NCBI RefSeq assembly: GCF_000381925.1
Contig: NZ_KB907307.1
Coordinates: forward strand, 4,836,001-4,900,000
DNA: 64,000 nt
From: Nocardia sp. BMG111209
GTDB taxonomy: Bacteria; Actinomycetota; Actinomycetes; Mycobacteriales; Mycobacteriaceae
Reading direction: 5' to 3'
Below are positions 28,450 through 64,000 of the stretch, piece after piece; the first letter of the stretch is position 1; every line of letters begins with the position of its first letter. Below the pieces are notes generated by a model that was not told the DNA's origin, did not search any database, and was given only the letters and a program-made list of their open reading frames with translations. Made by a program: the position numbers and the translations under genes.

Positions 28450-29829
28450 CTAGTTGCCGGACAGGAAACCGAGCAGATCGTGCCGCGTGATGACGCCGAT
28501 CGGCTTACCGTCCTCCACGACCATCAGCGCGTCTGTCATCTCCAGTTCCTTGGTCGCCGACGAGACCGGCTCACCCGAGCCGATCAGCGGGAACGACGGG
28601 CTCATGTGCTTGGACACCGGATCGGTGAGGTGGGCGCGGCCCTCGAACACCGCCGACAGCAGATCGCGCTCGGTGACGCTGCCCGCGACCTCGCCCGCCA
28701 TCACCGGCGGTTCCGCGCCGACCACCGGCATCTGCGAGACGCCGTATTCGCGCAGGATCTCGATCGCGTCGCGCAGCGTCTCCTGCGGATGCGTGTGCAC
28801 CAGATCGGGCAGCGCGCCCGACTTGCCGCGCAGTACGTCGCCGACCAACGGCTCCGGCAGCGTCGGATCCAGGCGGGTGCGCAGGAAGCCGTAGGAGCTC
28901 ATCCACTGGTCGTTGAAGATCTTCGACAGGTAGCCGCGGCCGCCGTCGGGCAGCAACACCACCACCACGGCGTCGGGATCGCGCTCGGCGACCCGCAGCG
29001 CGGCCACCACCGCCATACCGCACGAACCGCCGACCAGCAGCCCCTCCTCGCGGGCCAGGCGCCGGGTCATCTCGAAGGAGTCGGCGTCGGAGACGGCGAT
29101 GATCTCGTCCGGGATCTCGGGGTCGTAGGCCGAGGGCCAGAAGTCCTCACCGACGCCCTCCACCAGATACGGCCGGCCGGTACCGCCGGAGTACACCGAA
29201 CCCTCCGGGTCGGCGCCGATGATCTGCACCTTCCCGCCGGACACCTCCTTGAGATAACGGCCGGTGCCGGTGATGGTGCCGCCGGTGCCGACGCCGGCCA
29301 CGAAGTGGGTGACCCGGCCCTCGGTGTCGCGCCAGATCTCCGGACCGGTGGTCTCGTAGTGGCTGGCCGGGCCGCCGGGGTTGGAGTACTGATCCGGCTT
29401 CCAGGCGCCGGGGATCTCGCGGACCAGGCGGTCGGAGACGTTGTAGTAGCTGTCCGGATGTTCCGGCGCCACGGCGGTCGGGCAGACCACCACCTCGGCG
29501 CCGTAGGCCCGCAGCACGTTCCGCTTGTCCTCACTGACCTTGTCCGGGCAGACGAAGACGCATTTGTAGCCGCGTTGCTGCGCGACCAGGGCCAGGCCCA
29601 CCCCGGTGTTCCCGGACGTGGGCTCGACGATGGTGCCGCCCGGCCGCAGCAGACCGTCCTGCTCGGCGGCATCGATCATCTTGACCGCGATGCGGTCCTT
29701 GGAGCTGCCGCCCGGATTCAGGTATTCGATCTTCGCCGCCACCAAGCCGGAATTCGGCCCCACCACGGAGTTCAGTCGAACGAGTGGGGTGTTGCCGATG
29801 AGATCGACGACATGGTTCGCGATGCGCAT
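28450..29829 (-). CDS. cbs: Cystathionine beta-synthase (PLP domain plus CBS pair)
   Basis: 459 aa. Residues 1-330 are a fold-type II PLP domain: IGNTPLVRLN, PLP lysine K44 in NPGGSSKDR, EPTSGNTGVGLALVAQQRGY, and GTGGTITGTGRYLKE. The C-terminal ~120 residues contain two CBS motifs (DAIEILREYGVSQMPVV and DALMVVEDGKPIGVITRHDLL), often adenosyl-ligand sensing. It condenses homocysteine and serine to cystathionine. No heme-binding N-terminal extension. ATG 29829 (MRIANHVVDLIGNTP); ATG 29838 is possible. Same neighbourhood as metB, as in mycobacteria (Rv1077/Rv1079). Confidence 0.93.
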   Translation of the reverse strand: MRIANHVVDLIGNTPLVRLNSVVGPNSGLVAAKIEYLNPGGSSKDRIAVKMIDAAEQDGLLRPGGTIVEPTSGNTGVGLALVAQQRGYKCVFVCPDKVSEDKRNVLRAYGAEVVVCPTAVAPEHPDSYYNVSDRLVREIPGAWKPDQYSNPGGPASHYETTGPEIWRDTEGRVTHFVAGVGTGGTITGTGRYLKEVSGGKVQIIGADPEGSVYSGGTGRPYLVEGVGEDFWPSAYDPEIPDEIIAVSDADSFEMTRRLAREEGLLVGGSCGMAVVAALRVAERDPDAVVVVLLPDGGRGYLSKIFNDQWMSSYGFLRTRLDPTLPEPLVGDVLRGKSGALPDLVHTHPQETLRDAIEILREYGVSQMPVVGAEPPVMAGEVAGSVTERDLLSAVFEGRAHLTDPVSKHMSPSFPLIGSGEPVSSATKELEMTDALMVVEDGKPIGVITRHDLLGFLSGN

Positions 29830-55114: not shown

Positions 55115-56560
<1,446 letters not shown>

Positions 56561-56598
56561 TCACCACCCGAACGGGGTGCGAACGGGTCCGCTCGCCG

Positions 56599-57441
56599 TC
56601 ATGCCCGGCGGCCGACGCTGTAAGCGGCCGCGCGAGTACGGACCTTGGCCATGTAGGCGCCGGACTGGTTGTAGGTGAGCAGCGCCCGCTGCCAGCCGTC
56701 GGCGGTGGTGAGATCGCCACCGCTGGCGCACAGATAGCGCGCGGCGGTCAGCGCGGCGTCGTCGATGTTGTCCGGGTCGGCGATGCCGTCGCCGTTGGCG
56801 TCCACACCCCAGTGCTGCCACGTCTCCGGGAGGAACTGGAACGGGCCCATCGCCCGTACGTACACCGGACTGCCCGCCCGGGCCGTGGCGTCCTCGTCCA
56901 CGATCCGCGCCACGCCGGGTGAACCGTCCAGTGGCACACCACGAATCGGCGGCCGCACGGTGCCGTCGGCATCCAGGTGCGAACCGCCGTGGCTGCCGTG
57001 TTTGCTCTCCACCGCGGCGATACCGGCGAGGGTGGTCCAGCCGATCCCGCACTCCGGCCGGGAGCGGGCCAGCACCGCGGCCGCGTAGCCGTAGGACTCC
57101 ATCGCCACCACCGGGATTCCCAGTGGGCCGGACTGCGTTTCGGCCCAGTGGACCAACTGCACAGCGCTGCGGCCCGGCGCGTCGAGATCGATCGAGGGGA
57201 CGGCGACGCCGGGCCCGGGTGGGATGCCGTCCGGGATCGGTGGCAGATTCGAAGTGCCGCAACCGAACACCGCAAGACTCAGCGCCACGAGCACGGCGGC
57301 GCACCCGGCACTGCGCGGGAAGGACAGCGGAGCCCGGCGCCGGGCCAGGACGGAACGCACCCCTTCATCTTGCGTGGTCGGCGCGTCGGCGGCACGCACG
57401 GGTGGCGAGCCACGCGACGCACCGTCCGTCGTCGATACCAT
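56599..57441 (-). CDS. lpqU: LpqU-like lipoprotein lytic transglycosylase
   Basis: 280 aa. N-terminal basic region, hydrophobic segment and lipobox AVFGC (Cys near 62), then a membrane-bound lytic transglycosylase domain (SLT_2 type): the catalytic Glu in LAGIAAVESKHGSHGGS, RAMGPFQFLPETWQHWGVDANGDG, PDNIDDAALTAARYLCASGGDL and LLTYNQSGAYMAKV. Cleaves peptidoglycan. ATG 57441; the open frame continues to 58032 but overlaps the divergent hydroxylase. The iron box lies 24 bp upstream and could touch this promoter. Confidence 0.88.
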   Translation of the reverse strand: MVSTTDGASRGSPPVRAADAPTTQDEGVRSVLARRRAPLSFPRSAGCAAVLVALSLAVFGCGTSNLPPIPDGIPPGPGVAVPSIDLDAPGRSAVQLVHWAETQSGPLGIPVVAMESYGYAAAVLARSRPECGIGWTTLAGIAAVESKHGSHGGSHLDADGTVRPPIRGVPLDGSPGVARIVDEDATARAGSPVYVRAMGPFQFLPETWQHWGVDANGDGIADPDNIDDAALTAARYLCASGGDLTTADGWQRALLTYNQSGAYMAKVRTRAAAYSVGRRA

Positions 57442-57464
57442 GTGGCTATTTGCCGGCCCATGTA

Positions 57465-57483
57465 TTAGGTTAGGCTTGCTTAA
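57465..57483. promoter_or_regulatory. IdeR/DmdR iron box
   Basis: TTAGGTTAGGCTTGCTTAA matches the 19-bp IdeR consensus TTAGGTTAGGCTAACCTAA at 16 of 19 positions, including the first 12 in a row. It lies between lpqU and the hydroxylase operon, 77 nt upstream of the hydroxylase start. Fe2+-loaded IdeR/DmdR represses siderophore genes through such boxes. Confidence 0.8.
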
Positions 57484-57559
57484 GCTATCCGGAGGGGATC
57501 TCCTCCCCCACCGAGCTCCACCGCCTGCTTCACCACTCTCGCGAAGAAGGGATCGATGG

Positions 57560-58660
57560 GTGAAAAACGTTCTCCGCGAACGTGAGAACCACCACCGAGA
57601 AGCACCGGCCGAACTGGAACGTCGAATATTATCAACCGCGGACGCCATCGCCGTTCGCGACATCGCCGACGAGATCGCCGTCACAATCGACGATATGGCA
57701 GGAACGCGCGAGCGGACCGCCGCGACACTCGCCGACCCGCACCTGCTCGGCCTCATCGACGCGCACGTGTGCGCGGTGCCCGAGCGTGTCCGCGCGGCGT
57801 TGCGCCCGCCGGCCACCGCGACCGGCGTGGCGATCATCGACCGATTGCCGCTGCAGGATACGGAACTGGGCCCCACGCCCCGGGACTGGCGGGAGGCCGC
57901 CGCCTGGAGCGCCGATCCGGATCGGCGCACGGTGTCGTTCCGGCTGGATGTCACGATGCTGCTGCTGGCCCGTTGCGCCGGTGAGCCGTTCGGGTGGCAG
58001 GGACAGCAGAGCGGGCGGCTGGTGAACAACATCGTCCCCTCTCCCGGTCACGAGCACGAACAGTCCGGCGCGAGCAGCGTGACGCTGCTGTCCCCGCACA
58101 CCGAGGACGCCTTCCATCCCGATCGCGCGCACCTGCTGCTGCTGGGCTGCCTGCGCAATCCGGATGCGGTGGGTACCACGGTGTCCTCGGTGTGCGAGGC
58201 GCGACTGAGCTCCGCACACCGCCGCCGGCTGGCCGAGACGGCGCTGCCCATCCTCCCGGACGTGTCCTACGGCGAGGGTTTCGACGATCACCCCGCGACC
58301 CCGATCGCGACGCTCGCCGCCGGTCCCACCCTGCGCTACGACCCGGCCTACACCCCGCTGGACCGCGCCGATGCCGAATTCCGCGGCGCCTATGCACAAT
58401 TGAGCGCGGAACTGGAGCGGGTGGCCCATGCGGCGGTGCTGGAGCCGGGTCAGCTGCTCCTGGTCGACAACGACGTGGTGGTACACGGCCGGGTGCCGTT
58501 CGCGCCGCGTTACGACGGCACGGATCGCTGGCTGAAGCGGGTGAACATCCGCCTGCCGCAACGAAGCCGGGCCGAATCCGGCGAAAGCGGTTACGGACAG
58601 CGCACAGTCGCACCGTTCCGCACCGAAGCCGCTGTACCGCAAGCCGTCCCGCACCAGTGA
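57560..58660 (+). CDS. Clavaminate-synthase-like Fe(II)/2-oxoglutarate hydroxylase (AsnO/VioC type)
   Basis: 366 aa. Iron ligands H180-x-E182 (LLSPHTEDAFHPDR) and H309 (VVVHGRVPF); 2-oxoglutarate-binding Arg about R327 (RWLKRVNIRLP). The stretch HTEDAFHP..LLLLGCLRNPDAVGTT is diagnostic of the beta-hydroxylating amino-acid oxygenases AsnO, VioC and OrfP, not of generic TauD. It should hydroxylate the beta carbon of an amino acid, free or carrier-bound. Start GTG 57560 with AAGGGA upstream. First gene after the iron box; 13 nt before the SbnB-like gene. Confidence 0.85.
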   Translation: MKNVLRERENHHREAPAELERRILSTADAIAVRDIADEIAVTIDDMAGTRERTAATLADPHLLGLIDAHVCAVPERVRAALRPPATATGVAIIDRLPLQDTELGPTPRDWREAAAWSADPDRRTVSFRLDVTMLLLARCAGEPFGWQGQQSGRLVNNIVPSPGHEHEQSGASSVTLLSPHTEDAFHPDRAHLLLLGCLRNPDAVGTTVSSVCEARLSSAHRRRLAETALPILPDVSYGEGFDDHPATPIATLAAGPTLRYDPAYTPLDRADAEFRGAYAQLSAELERVAHAAVLEPGQLLLVDNDVVVHGRVPFAPRYDGTDRWLKRVNIRLPQRSRAESGESGYGQRTVAPFRTEAAVPQAVPHQ

Positions 58661-58673
58661 ACCGAGGAATCCA

Positions 58674-59663
58674 GTGAGCACTCGACCGACCCCGTTACGC
58701 GTGCTGTCCCGCAGCGATCTCGCCGACGTCCCCATCACCCCCGGCGATGTGAACCGGGCCGTCGAGGACGCGTATCTCGCACTGGCGTCCGGAGATTCGG
58801 ATAATCCGCGCAAACTCAGCGTGGCCCATCCGGACGGCTGGTCGGTCGCGTACGCCATGCTCGGCCGCGACGGACGCCGCCGGGTGGTCGCGATGAAGAC
58901 CTCGTACAAATTCGATCCGGCGCACGATCGCAGCACCAAGCGCTACTACACCACCATCACGCTCTACGACGACACCACCGGTATGCCGATCGCGATGATG
59001 GACTGTGCCCGTGTCGGCGCGCTGCGCACCCCCGCGGTGTCGGCGCTGCTGGTGCGCGAGACGATTCGCTCCGGCGCGCGCAGCGTCCTGCTGATCGGCA
59101 CGGGCACCCAGGGCCGCAACGCGCTGCCGCATCTGCTGGCCGCCAACCCCCAGCTGAACCGGCTGATGGTGTACGGAACCCATCCCGACGGCCTGAAGGC
59201 GGTGTACGAGCACCTCGCCGTCCACCATCCGCACCTCGAGCTCGAGACCGTCACCGACCCGTACGAGGCCGCCCGCTCCGCCGACGTGGTACTGGCCACC
59301 GCCGGCCCCGGCACCAAGGTCGCAGTCGAAACCGATGATCTCGCACCGGGTTCCGTGGCCGTACTGGTCGGCTACGGGCTGGCGCCCTCGGCGCTGTCCG
59401 GGGCGGACCGGGTCGTCGCCACCAGCGCCGAGCAGATGGCCCTGACCGGCACCGACCTGGTGGACGCGGACGGCCGGTTGCGTCCGGTCGACGCCGAGTT
59501 GCCGCAGATCCTGGGCCGCCGGGCCATCGGCCGCAACTCCGACGAGGACCGGATCTTCGTCTACAACAGCGGCCTGGTCCTCACCGATATCGCGGTCGCC
59601 CACGCCCTGGCCGAGCGCGCCATCGCCGAGGGACGGGGAACGGAGGTACCCCTGTGGGACTGA
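58674..59663 (+). CDS. SbnB-like N-(2-amino-2-carboxyethyl)-glutamate dehydrogenase (ornithine cyclodeaminase family)
   Basis: 329 aa. The NAD-binding motif VLLIGTGTQGRNALPHLLA is near residue 139; the substrate part has VAMKTSYKFDP (catalytic Lys region) and MMDCARVGALRTPAVSAL. In staphyloferrin B and viomycin-type pathways SbnB/VioK oxidatively cleaves ACEGA to L-2,3-diaminopropionate and 2-oxoglutarate. Pairing with an SbnA-like gene two genes later supports this over ornithine cyclodeaminase. GTG 58674; its end overlaps the decarboxylase start by 10 nt. Confidence 0.85.
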   Translation: MSTRPTPLRVLSRSDLADVPITPGDVNRAVEDAYLALASGDSDNPRKLSVAHPDGWSVAYAMLGRDGRRRVVAMKTSYKFDPAHDRSTKRYYTTITLYDDTTGMPIAMMDCARVGALRTPAVSALLVRETIRSGARSVLLIGTGTQGRNALPHLLAANPQLNRLMVYGTHPDGLKAVYEHLAVHHPHLELETVTDPYEAARSADVVLATAGPGTKVAVETDDLAPGSVAVLVGYGLAPSALSGADRVVATSAEQMALTGTDLVDADGRLRPVDAELPQILGRRAIGRNSDEDRIFVYNSGLVLTDIAVAHALAERAIAEGRGTEVPLWD

Positions 59664-61519
59664 GCGCCACCGCCCAGTTCTCCCTGTGGGAAACCGAGGA
59701 CACGGATCCCGCACCCCTCCCCGAAACCACCCCGTCCCCGAAAGTGCCCGCACCCCACCGCCCCCGGTCCCGCCGCCGGTCCACCTCCGCGCCGGATGCG
59801 CGGGTGCCGACGGAAGTCGCTGCCCCGCAGGTCGATTCGACCGCACCCGGCACCAGCGCAGACCCCGCGCCGACGGACGCGAGCGGCGAAGGCGCCGTGG
59901 CCGAGACGCGCACCGACGAGTCGGATACTGCCGCGGCTCGGACCGATTCGGCCGCCGACGAGGACGCGGTCACCTCGGACGTCACCGCGGCCGCCGCGGT
60001 GGGCACCCAGCAATCCCCGGAAGCGCCGACCGCCGCTCTCGCACCGGAGATCATGGACACGTCATCGGCCGAGCCCGGCGCACCACCGATCGCGGGCGGA
60101 ACCACCGAAACCGGAAGCGCCGCAGACGTCACGCGCGACGAGCTCGAAAGCCACACTGCCGCAGCGAACTCCGATGCGCCGGCGATCGTCGAACCGGCGA
60201 CCCCGCCCGGCCGGATCGCCACGCCACTGCCCGCGCATGCCGACGAATGGGAGCGGCGGCTGCTGGCCGATCCGGATCTGCTGAGCGATATCGCCTTCGC
60301 GATCGGCGGACCCTTCCACGTGATGTATCCCGCGCGAGTGGGCAGCAATATCGAGGCGTTCCGGGCGGCATTCGCGGCGGCGGGGGTCGAGGGGTCGATC
60401 TACTACGGCAAGAAGGCGAACAAGGCCGGCTGTGTGGTGCGGGCCTGCGCGGAGCACGGGGCCGGAGTCGACGTGGCCAGCATCGGGGAGCTGACTTCGG
60501 CCCTGGCACAGGGCATTCGGGGCGAGGACCTGATGGTGACCGGACCCGCGAAGTCCGACCGCCTGCTGTGGCTCGCGGCCCGCCACGACGCGCTGATCGC
60601 GGTGGACGCCCCGGACGAGCTGAATCGGCTGGCGGCCAACGGGATCGCGGCCCGAGTGCTGCTGCGGGTGCGGCCACCGAATTCGCAGAGCCGGTTCGGC
60701 ATGACCGATACCGAACTGGACCACGCGGTGACCGGGACCGACCTGGGACCGATCCGGCTGGAGGGGTTCAGTTTTCACCTGTCCGGCTACGAACCGCTAC
60801 CGCGCTCCGAACTCGCCGCGGCCCTGATCGAACGCTGCCTGCGGGCCCGCGACCACGGGCATCGAGCGTCGACGATCTCCCTCGGTGGCGGCTTCGGCGT
60901 CGACTATGTGCCGGCCGAGGAATGGGCCCGGTTCACCGCCGGAACCGGACCGCACTGGTTCCACGGCGGCAAGCGGTTCGATTCCTACTATCCGTACCAC
61001 TGCGCGACCCCGGGCGCGGCGATGCTCGCCGCCGTACTGGCACACGACGATCTGGCGAAGCGGATGCGCGACAACGATATTCGCCCCGCGATCGAACCCG
61101 GCCGCGCGCTGCTGGATCGAGCGGGCAGTACCGTCTTCCGGGTGCAGGGCGCAAAAGCGCGTTCCGTGCAGGATGTCTCGTATCAACTGCTCACCGTCGA
61201 CGGCACCAGTCTGAGCCTGTCGGAGCAGTGGTTCGACAGTGAATATCTGCCCGATCCGGTGCTGTGGCCGACCCGGCCGGGCACCGTGACCGGGGCCAGT
61301 GTCGGCGCGGCGACCTGCCTGGAGTCCGACATGCTCAGTTGGCGGCGTATCCCGCTGCCCCGGCCCGCCACGGCCGGCGATCTGCTGGTGTATCCGAATA
61401 CCGCGGGCTACCAGATGGATTCGAACGAATCGGCATTCCACGAGTTACCGCTCCCGCCCAAGGTGGTGCTGTCCGACGCACCCGGCGGGCGGCTGCGCTG
61501 GACGCTCGACGCCGGGTAA
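59654..61519 (+). CDS. SbnH-like fold-type III PLP decarboxylase with ~190-aa disordered N-terminal extension
   Basis: 621 aa, about 200 longer than relatives. Residues 1-190 are Pro/Ala/Thr/Glu-rich and disordered. From about 195 an alanine-racemase-type barrel: catalytic K254 in YYGKKANKAG, VDVASIGELTSAL, HLSGYEPLP, GGGFGVDYVP, EPGRALLDRAG, then the C-terminal sheet with TCLESDML, whose Cys/Asp act in decarboxylation. Similar to diaminopimelate/ornithine decarboxylases and to SbnH, which decarboxylates a citryl-diaminopropionate intermediate. GTG 59654 overlaps the SbnB-like gene by 10 nt. Confidence 0.82.
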   Translation: MGLSATAQFSLWETEDTDPAPLPETTPSPKVPAPHRPRSRRRSTSAPDARVPTEVAAPQVDSTAPGTSADPAPTDASGEGAVAETRTDESDTAAARTDSAADEDAVTSDVTAAAAVGTQQSPEAPTAALAPEIMDTSSAEPGAPPIAGGTTETGSAADVTRDELESHTAAANSDAPAIVEPATPPGRIATPLPAHADEWERRLLADPDLLSDIAFAIGGPFHVMYPARVGSNIEAFRAAFAAAGVEGSIYYGKKANKAGCVVRACAEHGAGVDVASIGELTSALAQGIRGEDLMVTGPAKSDRLLWLAARHDALIAVDAPDELNRLAANGIAARVLLRVRPPNSQSRFGMTDTELDHAVTGTDLGPIRLEGFSFHLSGYEPLPRSELAAALIERCLRARDHGHRASTISLGGGFGVDYVPAEEWARFTAGTGPHWFHGGKRFDSYYPYHCATPGAAMLAAVLAHDDLAKRMRDNDIRPAIEPGRALLDRAGSTVFRVQGAKARSVQDVSYQLLTVDGTSLSLSEQWFDSEYLPDPVLWPTRPGTVTGASVGAATCLESDMLSWRRIPLPRPATAGDLLVYPNTAGYQMDSNESAFHELPLPPKVVLSDAPGGRLRWTLDAG

Positions 61520-61529
61520 CCCACCGGCC

Positions 61530-61546
61530 CGGGGGTATTTCCCCCG
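61530..61546 (+). promoter_or_regulatory. Intercistronic hairpin in the siderophore-type operon
   Basis: CGGGGG / CCCCCG with loop TATTT in the 67-nt gap between the decarboxylase and SbnA-like genes. It may set the ratio of upstream and downstream products or protect mRNA ends. Confidence 0.45.
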
Positions 61547-61586
61547 AACCTTCCGACACACGATCCGAAAACCGAGGAGACCCGCA

Positions 61587-62615
61587 ATGCCGCTCGTCAC
61601 GCGCGTGACGGACCTGATCGGCGAGACCCCCCTGTTCGAACTCGCGACGACCGACACCGGAACCCGGCTGTTGCTCAAGCTCGAACAGTTCAACCCGACC
61701 GGGACGGCCAAGATCCGAATGGCCCGAGAAATGGTGCTCGATGCCGAGCGCCGTGGTTTGCTCGGGGTTGGCGGGCATATCATCGAATCCACGTCCGGCA
61801 ACACCGGGCTGGGACTGGCGGTCGTCGCGGCCGAGCGCGGCTACCGGTTCACCGCCGTAGTCGACCACCACGCCTGCAAGGACAAACTGCGCGCGATGCG
61901 AGCCATGGGCACCGAACTCGTCTTTGTCGCCGACGACGGCGACGATACGCTGGCCACCTCGGCCCGCGAGGATCTGGCCGCGGACATGGCCGCCGCCGAG
62001 ACCGACGGCTACTTCACCGAACAGCACAACAACGATGCCAACGCAGTCGGTTACTACGCGGTCGCCGAAGAGTTGCTGAAGGATCTCGGTCGGGTGGACA
62101 TCCTGCTGTCGGCCGTCGGCACCGGCGGTTCGCTGTTCGGGACGGCCCGGCGGTTGCGCGAAATGGGCTGTCAGCCGCGCGTGATCGGCGTCGAACCGGT
62201 CGGCTCGATCGCCTTCGGCGGCCCGGGTGGCCCGTACTGGCAGTCCGGCACCGGCACGCCGCCGGGCGCGACCGTCGGCACCGCTGTCGACTACACGCTG
62301 CTCGACGAGGGGCTGACGGTGACCGATGTGGCGGCCTTCGCGACCACCCGCGCGGTGGCACGGAAACTGGGGTTGCTGATCGGCGGCTCGGCCGGCGGCT
62401 CGGTGTATGCCGCGCTCACCCGGCTGGCGGACTTCCCACCCGGGTCCACGGTGGTCACCATCGTCTGCGACGGCGGCGAGAAGTACCTCGACACCGTCTT
62501 CGACGACGACTGGATGAACGACCGCGACCTGCTGGACGAGGCCACCGAACGCGAGGTGACCGCACTGCTGGACCGTTACGCACCGGCCACCCGAAACCTG
62601 GTGTGCGCACTGTGA
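61587..62615 (+). CDS. SbnA-like O-phosphoserine/glutamate aminating PLP synthase (cysteine synthase family)
   Basis: 342 aa. Fold-type II PLP enzyme: IGETPLFEL, PLP lysine K42 in QFNPTGTAKIRMA, STSGNTGLGLAVVAAERGY, SAVGTGGSLFGTARRL and VCDGGEKYLDTVFDD. The AKIRMA sequence in place of the CysK SxKDR, with SbnB-like and SbnH-like neighbours, points to SbnA (O-phospho-L-serine plus L-glutamate to ACEGA) rather than cysteine synthase. ATG 61587 with GAGGAG upstream. Confidence 0.87.
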   Translation: MPLVTRVTDLIGETPLFELATTDTGTRLLLKLEQFNPTGTAKIRMAREMVLDAERRGLLGVGGHIIESTSGNTGLGLAVVAAERGYRFTAVVDHHACKDKLRAMRAMGTELVFVADDGDDTLATSAREDLAADMAAAETDGYFTEQHNNDANAVGYYAVAEELLKDLGRVDILLSAVGTGGSLFGTARRLREMGCQPRVIGVEPVGSIAFGGPGGPYWQSGTGTPPGATVGTAVDYTLLDEGLTVTDVAAFATTRAVARKLGLLIGGSAGGSVYAALTRLADFPPGSTVVTIVCDGGEKYLDTVFDDDWMNDRDLLDEATEREVTALLDRYAPATRNLVCAL

Positions 62616-62643
62616 ATTCGACCCACGACAGGAGGCAACTCCG

Positions 62644-64000
62644 ATGACCGCCGACCGGGACGACCGGCCGGACGGGCGGCGCCTGACCGCGCTGGCCACC
62701 CCGATCGCGCTGACCCAGCTGGCCCAGGTGGCGGTGTCCACCACGAATATCGCGCTGATGGGTTCGCTCGGCATCACCCAGGTCGCCGCGGGCGGCCTGG
62801 CGCTGACGCTGTTCAACCAGATCCGGACGATGTGCGTCGGACTCGTCACCGCCACCGGCAACCAGGTCGCGACCGCCGCGAGCCGGGCCGAGCAGGAGTC
62901 GGGACAGCACACCACGGCCGGCCGGGCACCGCACGCGCCCGGCGGCACCGTGGCCGACCCGGCCGGTGACGAGATCCGCGATGTGGTGCGCGCCGGATTC
63001 CTGATCGCCACCGTCGCGGGGGTGCTCGGCGCGCTGATCCTGGCCGGGCTCGGCTGGGCACTGCAATGGCTCGGCCAGGACGCGGCCGTACTCGCCACGG
63101 CCCGGCCGATGCTGATGGCGCTGGCGCCCGGCCTGCTGCCGTGCCTGTGGTTCCAGGTGATCCGGCAGTACACCGTCGGCATGCAACGCCCGCAGGCGCT
63201 GCTGCTGGTGACGCTGGGTTCGGTCGCGCTGAACGCCGCGCTCGCGCTGGGACTCATGCACGGCTGGGGCGGCCTGCCGGAACTCGGCCTGACCGGGATC
63301 GGGGTCGCGAGCTCGCTGGTCTTCCTGATCACCTGCCTGGTGTTCTGGGTGATGGTCCGCCGCGACCCGATCCTCAGCGCCACCCTGCCGCTGCGGATGT
63401 GGCCCGTGCACCTCGGGACCGTCGGCGCCGAGGTGCGGCTGGGCCTGCCGATCGCGCTCACCTACGGCTCCGAGGCGGGCATGTTCTCCGTGCTGGCGCT
63501 GGTGATGGGTTCGCTGGGCCCGGCGGCCCTGGCCGCCCACAACGTGGTCTATCAGCTCGTGTACATCGTCTTCCAGGTGGCGATCGGGTTGTCGCACGGA
63601 GTGTCGATCCTGGTCAGCCGGGCGGTGGCCCGCGCGGAACATCAGCGCGCGCACGGGCTGGCCCGGCTGGCGCTGCGGCAGGCCGCGGTGGTCGCGGCCC
63701 TGGTCGGCGTGCTGTACGCGACGGTGCCCGATGTGGTGCTGCGCCCGTTCCTGACCGGTGACGACCACGAGACGGTGGCACTCGCGCACCGGCTGCTGCT
63801 GATCGCGATCGTGTTGCAGTTCTTCGACGCGGCCCAGAACATCGGCAACGGCCTGCTGCGCGGGATGCAGGACACCCGCGCCGGATTCCGGCTGTCACTG
63901 GTCGGGTACTGGGTTGTGGGCTTGCCCACAGCGTTGATACTCGCGCTGCCGGTCGGGCTGGGCGCCGCGGGTGTCTGGTGGGGCCTCACCGCGGGCCTCG
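62644..64000 (+). CDS. MATE-family efflux transporter, cut by the window end
   Basis: At least 452 aa in frame from ATG 62644 (AGGAGG upstream) to the window edge with no stop. Visible helices include LTALATPIALTQLAQVAVSTT at the start, VAGVLGALILAGLGWAL, and IALTYGSEAGMFSVLALVMGSLGPAALAAHNV, the duplicated MATE pattern. A hydrophilic Gly/His/Pro-rich insert (about residues 80-115) follows TM2. It begins 28 nt after the SbnA-like gene and is the likely exporter of the operon's product. Confidence 0.88.
   Translation, partial: MTADRDDRPDGRRLTALATPIALTQLAQVAVSTTNIALMGSLGITQVAAGGLALTLFNQIRTMCVGLVTATGNQVATAASRAEQESGQHTTAGRAPHAPGGTVADPAGDEIRDVVRAGFLIATVAGVLGALILAGLGWALQWLGQDAAVLATARPMLMALAPGLLPCLWFQVIRQYTVGMQRPQALLLVTLGSVALNAALALGLMHGWGGLPELGLTGIGVASSLVFLITCLVFWVMVRRDPILSATLPLRMWPVHLGTVGAEVRLGLPIALTYGSEAGMFSVLALVMGSLGPAALAAHNVVYQLVYIVFQVAIGLSHGVSILVSRAVARAEHQRAHGLARLALRQAAVVAALVGVLYATVPDVVLRPFLTGDDHETVALAHRLLLIAIVLQFFDAAQNIGNGLLRGMQDTRAGFRLSLVGYWVVGLPTALILALPVGLGAAGVWWGLTAGL

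Follow-up and report, generated by a model that had tools for sequence, protein, structure and literature searches.

An operon at the right-hand end of a 64,000-nucleotide (nt) stretch of the 9.14 Mb genome of Nocardia sp. BMG111209 (the window, bases 4836001-4900000 of contig C1) is highly likely to be a complete five-gene unit for ethylenediaminesuccinic acid hydroxyarginine (EDHA) or a very close analogue. EDHA is reportedly an aminopolycarboxylate siderophore of Streptomyces, described by Spohn in 2018. In gene content and gene order the operon agrees with Streptomyces loci regarded as EDHA clusters, with which it also has iron boxes and a hydroxylase of the arginine type in common; it is distinguished from them by the lack of an adjacent Opp-type importer in Nocardia and by a longer, variable N-terminus of the decarboxylase.

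Layout of the operon and its iron box

The features of the operon are listed below, with box scores referring to the IdeR consensus.

57465-57483 (strand not given): IdeR/DmdR-type iron box, TTAGGTTAGGCTTGCTTAA, matching 16 of the 19 consensus positions, 95 nt 5' of the hydroxylase start.
57560-58660 (+), GTG start: Fe(II)/2-oxoglutarate oxygenase of 366 amino acids, TauD fold, arginine hydroxylase/desaturase (VioC/OrfP/NapI) group.
58674-59663 (+): SbnB-like reductase of the ornithine cyclodeaminase/mu-crystallin family; PF02423, 78.5 bits; TIGR03944 SbnB, 94.7 bits, below the cut-off of 326.9; GTGTQG at residue 142.
59654-61519 (+): fold-III pyridoxal phosphate (PLP) decarboxylase, LysA/SbnH/Y4yA-like; PF02784, 75.5 bits; lysA TIGR01048, 100 bits, below the cut-off of 297.9.
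61587-62615 (+), ATG start: SbnA-like PLP beta-replacement enzyme with the cysteine-synthase fold; PF00291, 214 bits; lysine 42 in NPTGTAK; top NCBIfam match TIGR03945 SbnA, 236 bits, below the cut-off of 349.95.
62644-64104 (+; L001:8644-10104, crossing the window end at 64000): MATE-family exporter; MatE PF01554, 122.5 bits; TIGR00797, 160.9 bits, above the cut-off of 147.4.

The five co-directional genes (hydroxylase, SbnB-like, SbnH-like, SbnA-like and MATE) proposed in a first-pass annotation of the window were confirmed by the open reading frames (ORFs) and by Pfam, the cut-offs of which were passed by all five proteins. The successive spacings are 13 nt, a 10-nt overlap placing the decarboxylase start within the end of the SbnB-like gene, 67 nt and 28 nt. 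The NCBIfam equivalog models for SbnA, SbnB, lysA and VioC were matched below their cut-offs (236/350, 95/327, 100/298 and 190/419 bits, respectively) and the enzymes are therefore named only as "-like". No Rfam match was obtained in window positions 56000-64000.

A 35 kb stretch from C1:4890001, reaching 25 kb past the window end, was inspected through its ORFs with a minimum length of 180 or 200 amino acids. The first gene after the MATE gene encodes a calcineurin-type phosphoesterase (Pfam), and the genes further right, identified by eye, encode a stealth-type phosphotransferase, an MFS transporter, Mfd, GlmU, ergothioneine-type proteins and others, mainly of housekeeping type. This rightward extension, which the first-pass annotation had recommended, revealed by eye no nonribosomal peptide synthetase (NRPS) or NRPS-independent siderophore (NIS) synthetase among the translated ORFs, the search covering 25 kb to the right of the window and, inside it, only positions from ~52000 onwards. 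A search of the whole genome for IucA_IucC gave no match, with control searches positive in 2 of 14 genomes. Since no synthetase was seen in the right flank and IucA_IucC is without a genomic match, the operon is five genes long with the MATE gene last. The IucA/IucC or NRPS genes formerly expected beyond 64000 appear superfluous, an EDHA-type pathway needing neither NIS nor NRPS enzymes as far as its presumed chemistry indicates; for the same reason the lack of a nearby synthetase, once offered as part of the grounds for rejecting a siderophore, would not apply to a pathway of this type.

The first 12 bases of the iron box match the consensus exactly and the box is the only site in the window scoring at least 15/19, in agreement with the score and the uninterrupted run noted previously. 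With up to three mismatches the consensus occurs at five places in the genome, the operon box included, compared with one match for a reversed control pattern. Of the other four boxes, one is flanked by genes for an NRPS and an ABC ATPase, another lies immediately 5' of a siderophore-interacting protein gene close to an ornithine/lysine N-monooxygenase-like gene, a third is near a DUF2470 gene and a fourth near a gene for a succinate dehydrogenase membrane subunit. The best two IdeR-like boxes of the genome, with two mismatches each (C3:98559 and C3:118588; L140 and L141), adjoin siderophore-type genes of the NRPS/ABC, siderophore-interacting protein and N-monooxygenase-like kinds.

Conservation of the box was surveyed in the 72 usable of 80 named Nocardia loci, in a region from 300 nt upstream to 30 nt downstream of the hydroxylase start. 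The best site scored at least 14/19 in 64 loci and 13/19 in the other 8, while only 2 of 1440 mononucleotide shuffles reached 14. The site lies 92-97 nt upstream in 32 loci and, with a different sequence, 175-267 nt upstream in the other 40. In total, 103 19-mers scoring at least 14/19 were found in 23,760 nt of start regions compared with 45 in the other 1,163,572 nt of these loci, counts that do not represent independent events since the loci are related. The enrichment of candidate boxes at the hydroxylase start exceeds chance. The earlier proposal of an iron-boxed operon for a small metallophore, with SbnA/SbnB-type enzymes, a decarboxylase and MATE export, is supported.

A divergent gene at approximately 56599-57441 (-), is lytic-transglycosylase-like by eye. 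If its ATG is at 57441, a gap of about 24 nt separates its start from the iron box, which could then also touch the promoter of this gene.

Counterparts in Nocardia and Streptomyces

The decarboxylase is present in all 98 sampled Nocardia genomes, that of BMG111209 included, and the hydroxylase in 97; in the remaining genome (G013) the contig starts inside the SbnB-like gene (L014). Of 344 confirmed loci the best 80, all named Nocardia loci, were retained; 73 of these match all five genes, some of them partially, and the other 7 are at contig ends. As judged from these matches, the operon is near-universal in the sampled Nocardia.

Outside the genus, the decarboxylase was found at E<=1e-70 in 12 of 394 genomes of a class-wide sample, and at E<=1e-90 in 32 of 295 genomes of the genus of G115, taken as Streptomyces. 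Eleven Streptomyces loci were opened. The ten with 57-60% decarboxylase identity all contain the five genes in identical order, and a box of at least 15/19 precedes the hydroxylase in each of the seven scanned. Operon enzymes are 48-69% identical to their counterparts in these ten loci. Sister Streptomyces loci also carry a divergent importer, in which Pfam recognises permeases, a fused ATPase and a solute-binding protein of family 5. In L149, four importer genes, assigned by position and similarity, plus the five-gene operon span ~11.2 kb. Rhodococcus opacus PD630 has an importer together with the same five genes, again in this order.

The EDHA cluster of S. scabiei is described in the relevant passage of PMC8914351 as 11 kb (scab_5231-scab_5311) and as missed there by antiSMASH; if the locus tags step by ten, this range would hold nine genes, like L149. 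Holders of EDHA clusters listed in the section of PMC10702961 concerned are S. avermitilis, S. scabies and N. brasiliensis, and for strain HMX112 a single aminopolycarboxylic-acid cluster is given, with EDHA scored "High" (PMC12982422, in the part dealing with clusters). The window hydroxylase is 52% identical to that of S. avermitilis (P0146) and 49% to that of Streptomyces HMX112 (P0231), homologues which anchor the locus to EDHA clusters. Nocardia contributes 328 of the 1,450 windows (22.62%) of the EDHA family according to the passage on that family in PMC11888242. For N. mangyaensis NH1, the corresponding section of PMC10920908 describes cluster 7.2 as coding for an aminopolycarboxylic acid metallophore and as having a site for an iron regulator and a MATE transporter; by description it resembles the present operon in genus, product class, regulator site and exporter. 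The first-pass annotation had envisaged a chelator not yet described. Since EDHA has been described, Nocardia is counted in its family (PMC11888242, PMC10702961) and the N. mangyaensis cluster is annotated (PMC10920908), that novelty is not supported, and the chelator supposed to be new very probably corresponds to EDHA or to an analogue close to it.

The oxygenase contains the metal ligands H180-x-E182 and H309, as previously noted, and has the fold and Fe ligands in common with the arginine oxygenases VioC, OrfP, CmnC and NapI. In sequence rank these arginine oxygenases are nearer than AsnO. The fold score of the structure model (predicted local distance difference test, pLDDT, 78.5; an earlier model at 46.7 was discarded) is tied between AsnO and VioC, and the arginine-type assignment therefore draws on sequence and residues. 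Two aspartates of the enzyme align with D222 and D268 of VioC. The putative arginine-contact residues D234, D261 and Q150 are fully conserved in Nocardia and Streptomyces, and the hydroxylases of both share a short loop and a C-terminal GYGQ motif; in each of 94 loci the two aspartates are separated by a stretch of 25-37 residues, compared with 42 in NapI and ~44 in OrfP. Near the active site the Nocardia enzymes have VNN and the Streptomyces enzymes VHN. With the VioC equivalog TIGR03946 the oxygenase scored 190 bits and the S. avermitilis homologue 218 bits, both below the cut-off of 419. The enzyme is assigned as a putative arginine-type hydroxylase, predicted to act on the arginine arm. 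Of the AsnO/VioC-type hydroxylase suggested earlier, membership of the VioC group was upheld; an AsnO-type asparagine hydroxylase was dropped on sequence rank, despite the tied fold scores.

Proposed pathway and alternative products

By analogy with the families concerned, we infer the regulation, the individual reactions, their order and the product as follows. Iron-loaded IdeR would repress the operon at the box. The SbnA-like enzyme would attach the amine of aspartate or of (hydroxy)arginine to an activated serine in exchange for its leaving group, yielding an N-(2-amino-2-carboxyethyl)-amino acid, from which the LysA/SbnH-like decarboxylase would strip the serine-derived carboxylate to leave an aminoethyl group. 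Decarboxylation should precede coupling of the second arm because the fold-III PLP enzyme requires a free amine. That amine and a keto acid would then be joined by the SbnB-like reductase, working in the reductive direction, to place the second amino-acid arm on the ethylenediamine bridge. The VioC-like oxygenase would hydroxylate the arginine arm, as either the first or the last step, providing an extra oxygen donor, and the MATE protein would export the product. A product containing 2,3-diaminopropionate (Dap) had been proposed; the Dap pattern would probably arise only transiently, the loss of the serine-derived carboxylate leaving ethylenediamine. A small, probably synthetase-free siderophore would thereby belong to the core genes of Nocardia, alongside the siderophore-type NRPS genes that the BMG111209 genome carries as well. 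Scans for NIS or NRPS genes alone overlook such loci, and the five-gene unit is complete and testable.

Several observations weigh against the EDHA reading. In the decarboxylase and SbnB-like trees, not every branch of which is well supported, the loci with a hydroxylase are not monophyletic, and the second-copy Nocardia loci with a hydroxylase, L127 and L135, group in both trees with the hydroxylase-less loci of M. avium, Agrobacterium, Aureimonas and Nocardia second copies. The eleventh Streptomyces locus (L151, decarboxylase identity 49%) has another gene order and no hydroxylase match. Boxes of at least 15/19 are absent from the R. opacus locus and from L135, and a box lies directly 5' of the first gene in the hydroxylase-less Nocardia loci L126 and L129, results indicating that the box is not a marker of EDHA clusters only. 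No Opp-type or ABC importer was seen beside the Nocardia operon, and the binding protein of the Streptomyces importer has no evident ortholog in the BMG111209 genome (best match 31%). The EDHA operon is given as four genes, AesA-D, in the passage of PMC10702961 that describes it, compared with five here. Low-iron supernatants of N. mangyaensis were profiled by liquid chromatography-mass spectrometry, and the main text of that paper does not use the word EDHA (PMC10920908); the polar EDHA may have been lost on the XAD resin of that study. N. brasiliensis holds the core locus and a second, hydroxylase-less cluster, so that the cited EDHA locus of that species may be either. Finally, the reference Streptomyces cluster (Spohn 2018; scab_5231-5311; BGC0002567) was itself compared by description only, the direct comparison being with Streptomyces loci taken as EDHA clusters.

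The nearest alternative, which overlaps with the close analogue admitted above, is an EDHA analogue special to Nocardia with the same skeleton and biosynthetic logic and a different second amino acid or hydroxylation site. Although the modest enzyme identity to the ten Streptomyces loci, the VNN/VHN difference near the hydroxylase active site and the unconserved importer point in this direction, the putative arginine-contact residues are invariant in both clades and gene order and iron box are the same as in Streptomyces, making a product special to Nocardia somewhat unlikely. A more elaborate variant of the EDHA reading, in which the short-loop oxygenase would act on the assembled ethylenediamine-arginine conjugate and not on free arginine, a variable, disordered decarboxylase tail would tether the enzymes and uptake of the Fe complex would use a system that is no relative of the Streptomyces importer, is quite unlikely.

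A metallophore resembling ethylenediaminedisuccinic acid (EDDS), serving zinc or another metal and with the hydroxylase as an accessory, is decidedly improbable. EDDS and EDHA clusters are placed in one class in the passages of PMC10486106 and PMC10702961 on these products, and related clusters without a hydroxylase exist, some of them iron-boxed. However, the iron-type box is conserved in Nocardia and present in Streptomyces, and the hydroxylase is retained in 97 of 98 Nocardia genomes. The Amycolatopsis japonicum cluster for [S,S]-EDDS, compared by description, is related in product class; according to the title of the paper on it its regulation is zinc-dependent, whereas the Nocardia operon has an iron box and a hydroxylase.

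A Dap/citrate siderophore like staphyloferrin B of Staphylococcus aureus (sbn), with synthetases encoded elsewhere, would account for the co-occurrence of SbnA-, SbnB- and SbnH-like enzymes, families that the two systems share, but is highly implausible given the lack of NIS synthetases in the Nocardia genome (no IucA_IucC match), SbnA and SbnB scores far below the curated cut-offs and a MATE gene that closes the operon. Next to no weight can be given to a supply of Dap and hydroxyarginine for a viomycin- or streptothricin-type antibiotic: VioC, OrfP and CmnC do belong to the hydroxylase group, but inspection of the right flank by eye showed no assembly-line genes, the operon is conserved genus-wide with its iron box, and the short loop is as in the Streptomyces loci, unlike OrfP and NapI.

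Related loci and the decarboxylase tail

Clusters of SbnB-like, decarboxylase and SbnA-like genes with no hydroxylase match were found at L126, L128, L129, L130, L147, L113, L121, L115 and L116. Carriers of hydroxylase-less clusters include second copies in Nocardia, among them N. brasiliensis, the M. avium plasmid pMAH135, an Agrobacterium Ti plasmid and Aureimonas. In L113, L121 and L128 the top SbnA-like match is just 34% identical. The hydroxylase-less L151 lies beside Streptomyces on a long branch of the decarboxylase tree. The sole box of at least 15/19 in L127 is ~1.6 kb away. In one Nocardia locus (L133, genome G072) the SbnB-like and decarboxylase genes each match in two pieces, the result of either a decaying copy or assembly errors.

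The decarboxylase carries lysine 254 in the motif KKANK and the motif CLESD at 555. Its N-terminus (59654-60280) consists of ~200 low-complexity amino acids ahead of the conserved PAHxDEWERRLLADP core. This tail is 25-343 amino acids long in the core Nocardia loci with a placeable start and 21-34 in ten Streptomyces loci. Some long tails have a short motif near the start, QFSLW[ED] in the window, L023 and L024, and M[VM]LF[DE][VI] in L052, L055, L068, L072, L092, L100 and L117. Third-position codon differences only mildly exceed those at first and second positions, and the majority of codon changes are nonsynonymous. The tail looks coding because of its frame, overlap and length, and looks weakly constrained.

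Another PLP enzyme in the window, at 28900-29808 (-), scores 245 bits to the SbnA model compared with 236 for the enzyme of the operon, both below the cut-off, and is likely a cystathionine beta-synthase or cysteine synthase. Elsewhere in the genome, at C1:1675438-1677737 (L144), another decarboxylase, 36% identical, adjoins an SbnA-family match, and similar pairs occur in other Nocardia at L131 and L132.

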